A DNA stretch of 64,000 bases from Bdellovibrio reynosensis. Lineage in GTDB: Bacteria; Bdellovibrionota; Bdellovibrionia; Bdellovibrionales; Bdellovibrionaceae. Each line of letters opens with the position of its first letter. The first letter of the stretch is position 1. The stretch lies in NCBI RefSeq assembly GCF_022814725.1, contig NZ_CP093442.1, positions 806,001 through 870,000 of the forward strand, read 5' to 3'. The translations under genes and the position numbers were made by a program. Below the pieces are notes generated by a model. It saw only the letters and a program-made list of their open reading frames with translations. It had not been told where the DNA came from and did not search any database. Positions 28,961 to 30,369 of this stretch are shown here, in pieces.

Positions 28961-29105
28961 GGTTCTTTGAGGCCGATCAAAAAGATGCATATGCAAGGCG
29001 GAGGATCCTGGCTGCCACGCAGGCGTACCCGTAGGGTACGCCGGAGAGCAAGACAGGACCGCACAACGCAGTCAGATGCGTCTTTTTCATCGGTCTCAAA
29101 GCAAC
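28961..29105. repeat. Structured repeat, copy 1
   Basis: The 84-nt core (28992-29075) matches the reverse complement of a second copy (30255-30338) at 78 of 84 positions by my count. Inside it is a short palindrome, GGCGTACCC-GTA-GGGTACGCC (29022-29042). Outside it are terminal inverted repeats of about 30 nt (28961-28990 and 29076-29105) matching at 25 of 30 positions. The whole can fold into a long cruciform or RNA stem. It fills the gap between a small membrane-protein gene, whose stop codon touches the repeat end, and the aldehyde dehydrogenase. No transposase is nearby; a REP- or MITE-like element is the closest known type. Confidence 0.85.
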
Positions 29106-29335
29106 TATAGCGAGGTAAATACCGAGTGAAAAGAATAAACGAGACCAAGAAGAAACGCAGAAGTCATTGCTCCCCATGCCATCGATTTATAGAACTTGCC
29201 AAGTTGCATAGCTGCTCTTGCATACGGGCGTTCGCTTGCTAGCATTGGAATTGGTGTCACAATTGTTTTGATAAATTGATGACAGCAACCGCAGAAAAGT
29301 ACCACTGAAATGACGCTAAGTATTTCTTGTTCCAT
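29105..29335 (-). CDS. Small membrane protein, unknown
   Basis: The ATG at 29335 gives a 76-aa protein; an in-frame TTG at 29365 would add ten residues. Two hydrophobic segments are visible, one near the N-terminus containing a CGCC cysteine group (LFCGCCHQF) and one near the C-terminus (AWGAMTSAFLLGLVYSF), with a basic linker between them. No strong ribosome-binding site is seen. The stop codon coincides with the outer end of repeat copy 1. It is the last of three small genes between the two inverted repeats. Function unknown. Confidence 0.55.
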   Translation of the reverse strand: MEQEILSVISVVLFCGCCHQFIKTIVTPIPMLASERPYARAAMQLGKFYKSMAWGAMTSAFLLGLVYSFHSVFTSL

Positions 29336-29390
29336 GGTAAATTTATCGGCCAAAAAGCGTCTCAACTTGAGATCGCCCTTAGTCTAGGAT

Positions 29391-29765
29391 TTACGAAGAT
29401 TTTTTATCTTTGTCGGTTGGATCTTTTTTGATGATGTCAATTTCTGCAGTGATTTTGAATTTATGGGTTTCTGCAAATTTCGACGCTTCCTTTACGAAGT
29501 CGATCTTTTGAATAATTGAAACGATCTCTTTAGTAACCTTTTGGGTCATTTCATCTTTGGATTTATTGGCTCCTTGAATCAGCATGTTCAAGGCTTCTTT
29601 AGGAAGTTTTAATTCAGACACATAATTTCGAAGACTTTCTTCCGTAAAAAAAGCGGCACCCATTCCTGCGGTGAAAACTTTTTTCACAGTATCGCCAAGA
29701 AAACCTTTCAGGTCCCCTTGGTTGTTGTCTTTTTCGTCTTTTTTGTGTGAATCATCAGACGCCAT
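29391..29765 (-). CDS. Small cytoplasmic protein, phasin-like in form
   Basis: The 124-aa protein has a very polar Asp/Lys-rich N-terminus, a central helical region including AGMGAAFFTEESLRNYV and several heptad-like helices, and a lysine/aspartate-rich tail (KKDPTDKDKK). This recalls phasin-like or other helical accessory proteins, but I cannot name a family. Its start overlaps the end of the SRPBCC gene by 11 nt, so the two are co-translated and may act on the same hydrophobic ligand or membrane surface. Confidence 0.7.
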   Translation of the reverse strand: MASDDSHKKDEKDNNQGDLKGFLGDTVKKVFTAGMGAAFFTEESLRNYVSELKLPKEALNMLIQGANKSKDEMTQKVTKEIVSIIQKIDFVKEASKFAETHKFKITAEIDIIKKDPTDKDKKSS

Positions 29766-30186
29766 AAAGTTGTTTTACTCTTTTGTGATAGCTGCTGATC
29801 ATATTTGGAAGATTCACGCTGACCAAGGCATTTGCGATAGGACCGGGAACAAACATACTGAAAGTCGCTTCAACGGTGTATGTTGCACGGGTTTTACCGG
29901 CTTCATTTTCTAACTTCCATGAACCCACAGATGTTTTAAAAATATCACCGGATGCAAATTCCCAAGTGATGCTTGTCGGAGCATTTTCCGTCATCCACAG
30001 CGAGTATTTCAAAGACTTGATAACTTGAACATTATATTCAACAAGCTTGCGATTGCCTTCAGTTTTAAGCACCTTGCATTGCTTAACTTCAGCCAAAAAC
30101 TCGTGATATTTTTCGTAGTCTGAAATGATTTTATAGAATTGTTCGGGAGTGCAGTTGAAAACTTCGGTGGTAGATGCTTTTGCCAT
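29755..30186 (-). CDS. SRPBCC (START/polyketide cyclase-like) protein
   Basis: The 143-aa protein has the length and order of a helix-grip domain of the type seen in coenzyme-Q-binding proteins and RatA. It begins with a beta strand (STTEVFNCTPEQFYKII), then DYEKYHEFLAEVKQC, a series of strands including ITWEFASGD and RATYTVEATF, and a long C-terminal helix with LPNMISSYHKRVKQL. Such proteins hold hydrophobic ligands. The gene is the first of three between the inverted repeats. The ligand is unknown. Confidence 0.82.
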   Translation of the reverse strand: MAKASTTEVFNCTPEQFYKIISDYEKYHEFLAEVKQCKVLKTEGNRKLVEYNVQVIKSLKYSLWMTENAPTSITWEFASGDIFKTSVGSWKLENEAGKTRATYTVEATFSMFVPGPIANALVSVNLPNMISSYHKRVKQLYGV

Positions 30187-30237
30187 AAAGTAAGTCTGGC
30201 AACTTGTTTATCATGAGTCAACGCGAGGCTAGACCAC

Positions 30238-30357
30238 GGTCGTCGATAAGCCAGCTGACTGCGTTGTGCGGTTCTGTCTTGCTCTCCGACGTACCCTTCA
30301 GGTACGCCTCCGTGGCAGCCAGAATCCTCCGCCTTGCAGCTGACTACTTCTCGCCAA
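30238..30357. repeat. Structured repeat, copy 2 (inverted relative to copy 1)
   Basis: The core at 30255-30338 is the reverse complement of copy 1 with six differences in 84 positions. It keeps the central palindrome around GGTACGCC. Its flanks also pair with each other (about 30238-30254 with 30339-30357, with mismatches and a bulge), but their sequence differs from the flanks of copy 1. It lies between the zinc-ribbon gene and the SRPBCC gene. The outer stem therefore seems kept as structure rather than as sequence. Confidence 0.8.
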
Positions 30358-30369
30358 CCTTATGTTACG

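Follow-up and report, generated by a model that had tools for sequence, protein, structure and literature searches.

Two inverted, structured repeats lie on either side of three genes in Bdellovibrio reynosensis, and this locus raises the question of whether the repeats and the genes form one unit or whether the repeats came to the place separately. The locus is part of a 64,000-nt stretch of the chromosome (contig NZ_CP093442.1, positions 806,001 to 870,000; hereafter the window), and coordinates of the locus are given as positions in this window. The original prediction described two 84-nt cores, at 28992-29075 (+ strand) and 30255-30338 (- strand), as reverse complements at 78 of 84 positions, and our recount gave the same value. 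The first core comprises the conserved internal loops and the variable inner stem described below. A repeat finder lengthened the cores to 87-nt arms (28992-29078 and 30252-30338), which are 92% complementary.

Each core is the inner part of a longer hairpin element. Copy 1 occupies 28971-29095 on the + strand and scores 135.4 bits with covariance model R1, covering the full model (1-125). Its ends are of type I (TCAAAA...TTTTCA), given for this copy as 'GATCAAAA...TTTTCATC', its outer helix is 11 bp, and the pairing of its outer arms continues outward to about 28965-29101. Copy 2 occupies 30238-30359 on the - strand, scores 117.5 bits and has ends of type II ('GGTTGGCGAGAAG...CTTATCGACGACC'); 3 nt are missing from its 3' arm relative to other copies. 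The central palindrome and the mutually pairing outer arms that had been predicted were found in the two copies, and the outer arms are indeed unlike in sequence, with end type I in one copy and type II in the other. When the element strand was folded as single-stranded DNA, copy 1 gave -34.7 kcal/mol (z -5.85) and copy 2 gave -25.6 kcal/mol (z -3.2). None of 200 dinucleotide shuffles folded as well in either case, and the arm pairing is far above that of shuffled sequence.

The core recurs about 78 times in the B. reynosensis genome. A blastn-type search detected at least 40 copies, and model R1, which was built from 28 B. reynosensis copies and has a length of 125 nt, detected 78 copies at E<=1e-4 in the 3.58-Mb genome. 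Most of these are full length, most measure 120-125 nt, and they are mostly intergenic. Across the order Bdellovibrionales, matches at E<=1e-4 were obtained in 41 of 141 genomes, including 21 of the 24 genomes tested from the genus Bdellovibrio. The copy number within the genus ranges from 0 (G003, G004 and G014) to 78 (B. reynosensis), with 45 copies in G013. A genome from another family of the order (G138) has 24 R1 matches, and a separate expansion may exist there. No Rfam family was found at gathering thresholds in the window, the copies tested gave sub-threshold matches only, and a known structured RNA family was rejected because no match exceeded the gathering score. Our literature search on REP, MITE or intergenic repeats of Bdellovibrio found nothing relevant. 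Chance or a local palindrome is ruled out by the approximately 78 copies, the folds that surpass shuffled sequence and the covariation.

From 5' to 3', the element is composed of the outer helix, the end type, loop A, a variable inner stem, loop B and a terminal hairpin. The ends are either type I or type II (GGCGAGAAG...CTTATCG), and the outer helix is closed by an A...G mismatch, with A in 55 and G in 46 of 63 copies. Internal loop A (CAAGGCGGAGG / CACAACGCAGTC) and internal loop B (ACGSAGGCG / CGTCGGAGAG) are conserved, and loop B resembles loop A flipped. The arms are inverted repeats, but the outer sequence varies between copies. A GTAG foot showed no consensus among the 63 copies; the 5' foot is variable and ends in A in 55 of them. 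In 28 genomic copies, 96.9% of the stem cells were paired, compared with 80.1% in shuffles, and the covariation score of 0.509 exceeded those of the shuffles (0.193) and of the slid structure (no more than 0.109). RNAalifold gave 37 pairs, 24 of which have compensatory changes on both sides. These pairing and covariation values strongly support the selection for structure that had been suggested from the two copies alone.

The two strands of the element are not equivalent. In 58 of 59 full copies, the element strand formed the more stable fold of the two, and the mean fold energies over the 59 copies were -60.2 versus -47.7 kcal/mol as RNA and -30.9 versus -24.6 kcal/mol as DNA. The alifold energy was -41.7 for the element strand and -16.5 for the complement. 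The stems hold 199 G·T and 12 A·C pairs on the element strand, a count that is biased because the pairs were chosen on this strand, and the energy comparison is the fairer test. Only one strand of the element is under selection for the hairpin fold.

The three enclosed genes all lie on the - strand: a small membrane-protein gene (29105-29365), whose stop codon is separated from the 3' end of copy 1 by about 10 nt, a phasin-like gene (29391-29765) and an SRPBCC/polyketide-cyclase gene (29755-30186). The SRPBCC assignment was confirmed by PF03364. The other two open reading frames had no Pfam match, and phasin-like is the name given with the original prediction. We compared 24 Bdellovibrionales loci with an SRPBCC gene for gene order and for the presence of the element. 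The order GlpX, small Cys-rich protein, SRPBCC, phasin-like, membrane protein, AldDH and TilS lies on one strand and is kept wherever the genes were found, and this seven-gene order is most complete in Bdellovibrio, where it is entire in several cases. Neither copy of the hairpin element was found in the flanks of the orthologous SRPBCC loci (0 of 24). In the alignment with the element removed, the site of copy 2 is empty in relatives; the spacer that holds copy 1 is too diverged in relatives for a good alignment. A clear target-site duplication was not apparent at the two empty sites, where the relatives are diverged. Because relatives keep the gene order without either copy and the genomic copies are dispersed singly, copies 1 and 2 are, as judged from this comparison, later and separate insertions beside an ancestral operon. 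The membrane, phasin-like and SRPBCC genes are accordingly ancestral neighbours and neither cargo nor an inverting block.

The orientation of the copies was analyzed relative to replication. A DnaA_N search to place oriC gave no match, so the replichores were set by GC skew and by the published dif of B. bacteriovorus HD100, at 1,940,732 (PMC2731167). In B. reynosensis, 70 of 77 copies are oriented by replichore: 43 of 48 copies between about 0.70 and 2.55 Mb, the arm of negative GC skew, are on the + strand, and 27 of 29 elsewhere are on the - strand (Fisher p=1.5e-13). These boundaries look like the origin and terminus because, across the fetched loci, the sign of the GC skew switches near the positions where the copy orientation does. 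Copy 1 obeys the replichore rule, and copy 2 has the minority orientation for its replichore as one of the 7 exceptions among the 77 copies. Between convergent gene pairs, where transcription is symmetric, 29 of 29 copies conform (p=2e-8), and gene direction was therefore rejected as the cause of the orientation. In the genome taken as HD100 (G006), 15 of 15 copies among the matches listed switch strand at the dif. Strand blocks without exceptions among the matches listed were also present in G023, G013, G012, G022, G005, G016 and G002, the last of which we take to be Tiberius; G021 and G007 have too few copies among the matches listed for strand blocks to be judged. Assuming normal GC skew, we infer that the element strand is the C-rich strand, that is, the leading-strand template with nascent-lagging sense.

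The insertion sites have a preferred position relative to genes. In B. reynosensis, 51 copies have a gene converging on the 3' end of the element, and the gene mostly ends within about 17 nt of it; in other species, 13 of 16 converging gene ends are located at -8 to +6 nt (script coordinates). The readable stop codons of the converging genes are TAA or TAG in 22 of 22 cases and never TGA, which makes up 18% of the stops in the window (P ~0.013 for its absence among 22). On the 5' side, the distances to neighbouring genes are broad. The proximity to stop codons reflects either target choice or survival, and a sequence target (C/T)TA beyond stop codons received weak support from the non-converging copies.

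Several other features were observed in and around individual copies. Many copies have an AC/GA-rich 5' flank (ACCGAGAACCAA), and at L198, CCGAGAA/AGAACC short tandem repeats that resemble this flank extend over a long stretch between the Y1 transposase gene and the element. Three copies in the B. reynosensis genome (G000:C1:650560, 1699957 and 2524773; L026, L122 and L025) carry a second hairpin (...AAAAATGCC..GGCATTTTTGCGCGAAGCCCGAAGGG...GGGCAGGAGCCC...) inside the same 3' internal loop, after which the host element resumes, an arrangement of nested repeats with a preferred target. Two copies (G000:C1:949655 and 1756007; L100 and L101) have an identical element and 3' flank with a different 5' flank, which suggests recombination at the element or the duplication of a larger segment. 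About 350 nt downstream of one copy is a c-di-GMP-I riboswitch (RF01051, 59 bits; L032:1969-2051, + strand).

It had also been stated that no transposase is nearby; this is true of the window, but in other species Y1 transposase genes have the element at their 3' end. Y1_Tnp genes are found throughout the genus Bdellovibrio. The R1 search of the fetched Y1 loci placed the element directly downstream of, and on the same strand as, eight Y1 genes (L195, L198, L204, L210, L216, L218, L221 and L245), with two tandem copies behind the gene of L195, and at a ninth Y1 gene (L138) the corresponding position holds a diverged hairpin whose loop motifs are similar. The chance of such adjacency is at most about 4e-6, even with 20-fold intergenic enrichment. 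All the element-linked Y1 genes belong to one tree clade (8 of 37 versus 0 of 46 in the rest, p=0.001), and genomes with this clade have more copies of the element (Mann-Whitney p=0.018). The clade is short, with many members of about 183-190 aa, and has H-x-H and Y motifs. It is above the Pfam Y1_Tnp cut-off but does not reach the NCBIfam cut-offs for transposases of the IS200 and REP types, including REP_Tyr_transpos, and it matches the IS608 and ISDra2 TnpA structures by profile. Repeated 'GACCGATACCCC' motifs, perhaps another repeat family, occur downstream of short-clade Y1 genes at L193, L216 and L198.

A Y1 gene of the short clade was not found in B. reynosensis (78 copies), in G013 (45 copies) or in some other genomes with copies. 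The sole Y1 gene of B. reynosensis (L031:1135-1809, - strand) lies between flagellin genes and is possibly domesticated. This gene was rejected as the mobiliser because it belongs to another clade, has no adjoining element and has among its close tree relatives one from the element-free G003. The link with Y1 genes is well supported as an association, and a Y1 transposase remains a candidate as the mobiliser in B. reynosensis.

The element was compared with known systems. REP sequences and their TnpA_REP/RAYT transposases, the 'REPtrons' of E. coli, Pseudomonas and Stenotrophomonas, are also dispersed extragenic imperfect palindromes of high copy number, with conserved mismatches and with cognate elements beside Y1 (HUH) genes of one clade. 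REP sequences are recognised on one strand, and the Bdellovibrio element folds on one strand, to which a transposase is proposed to bind and which it would cut. However, classical REP sequences are 21-65 nt with a GTAG (or GTRG) foot, whereas the Bdellovibrio element is about 125 nt, has the A...G mismatch in place of this foot, and contains conserved double internal loops with variable stems. The Bdellovibrio Y1 clade differs from RAYTs in being short, falling below the REP_Tyr_transpos cut-off and being absent from the copy-richest genome. REPINs consist of two inverted GTAG REPs around a spacer and are thought to be moved in trans by RAYT via single-stranded DNA with a 5' tail (Bertels and Rainey 2011, PMC3116915). 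The Bdellovibrio element is likewise a non-autonomous unit of hairpin scale, but its conserved parts are two similar flipped internal loops and not GTAG REP units.

As in Bdellovibrio, the Y1 genes of class 3 and subclass 2.6 TnpA_Y1 are flanked by GTAG-less secondary structures that also occur at other places in the genome (Quentin et al. 2018, PMC6006769). In class 3, however, the foot is CnGA and the motif is Y----Q, whereas the Bdellovibrio motif is Y---N or Y---D; subclass 2.6 is mostly from Bacteroidetes, and Bdellovibrio is unnamed in the main text of that paper. The IS200/IS605 family (IS608 and ISDra2) shares the transposase fold family and the replication-linked orientation, but its members are autonomous LE-gene-RE units, which the Bdellovibrio element is not. 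In addition, IS608-type elements use the lagging-strand template (PMC6006769), whereas the folded strand in Bdellovibrio corresponds to the leading-strand template, which a simple IS200/IS605 mechanism does not explain. MITEs of the DD(E/D) type have terminal inverted repeats and a target-site duplication; the arms of the Bdellovibrio element are inverted, but their outer sequence varies.

We consider it probable, at about 0.6, that copies 1 and 2 arose by independent insertion of a mobile hairpin of about 125 nt, which is non-autonomous, REP/REPIN-like and spread across the genus, and which probably moves as single-stranded DNA. The folded strand would be recognised in this form by a Y1 transposase that acts in trans, and the hairpin would be joined into the chromosome at replication forks. 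Entry would most likely occur by pairing with, or joining opposite, the gapped lagging-strand template, in the manner of Okazaki-like single-stranded DNA, because the folded strand nearly always has the nascent-lagging sense. Insertions would persist where they are harmless, chiefly right after the TAA or TAG stop of a converging gene. The cognate mobiliser of B. reynosensis was probably lost, since a cognate Y1 gene is not recognisable in this copy-rich genome. The copy-rich B. reynosensis and G013 without a short-clade Y1 gene and the absence of GTAG feet argue against this explanation. A related reading, which we find possible but rather doubtful, is that the hairpin has a new flipped-loop architecture and spreads as folded single-stranded DNA via lagging-strand gaps, with help from the short Y1 clade in certain species and from another or a host-encoded activity elsewhere.

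Active movement of the element was not observed, and its polarity could arise from the loss of wrongly oriented copies and not from insertion. In this case, insertion would occur either way, and copies whose more stable hairpin strand lies on the lagging-strand template would be deleted or cleaved at replication; hairpin-mediated deletion is known to be worse on this template. The element strand is the more stable one as DNA and is kept off the lagging-strand template, and survival bias fits the strand data as well as insertion bias does; nevertheless, we regard it as unlikely, since the polarity is absolute among the matches listed in several genomes, yet the stability gap is only about 20%, and both strands of copy 1 fold well. 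A transcribed structured RNA, such as a 3'-UTR element, terminator or sRNA that multiplied by duplication and was retained for a function at the ends of genes, would account for the one-strand fold with conserved G-U pairs and for the location between gene ends, close to stop codons. It is improbable, given that the orientation tracks replication even in convergent pairs, that the element can be sense or antisense to its neighbours, and that the copies are species-specific at the tested locus and have no Rfam match. The near-perfect replichore polarity could also be that of a KOPS-like chromosome-architecture signal selected for its reading direction towards the terminus, but the range of 0 to 78 copies among congeners, with three genomes of the genus having none, the orientation exceptions and a 125-nt covarying hairpin that far exceeds the needs of a short polar motif make this very improbable. 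Replication-linked orientation is known for retroelements, and together with the long structured element it would fit an element copied via an RNA intermediate by a retron or group II-like reverse transcriptase; we give this little credence, as PF00078 had no match in the copy-rich B. reynosensis, G013 or G017. The original prediction that the inverted pair could flip or mobilise the three-gene block was rejected and retains next to no probability: the copies are inverted and 92% alike, so recombination is possible in principle, but relatives without either copy show no difference in the order or orientation of the genes, and the approximately 76 other copies are dispersed and not paired around genes.

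The spread of REP-like repeats is still inferred and not watched. In this element family, including the HD100-sized B. bacteriovorus genome, the polarity records the direction of replication nearly without exception, fold stability and the numbers of G·T versus A·C pairs reveal the active strand, and a transposase clade can be named as a candidate. The presence of such elements as inverted copies is no evidence for invertible gene cassettes. The models of insertion bias and survival bias become directly testable in a culturable predator.
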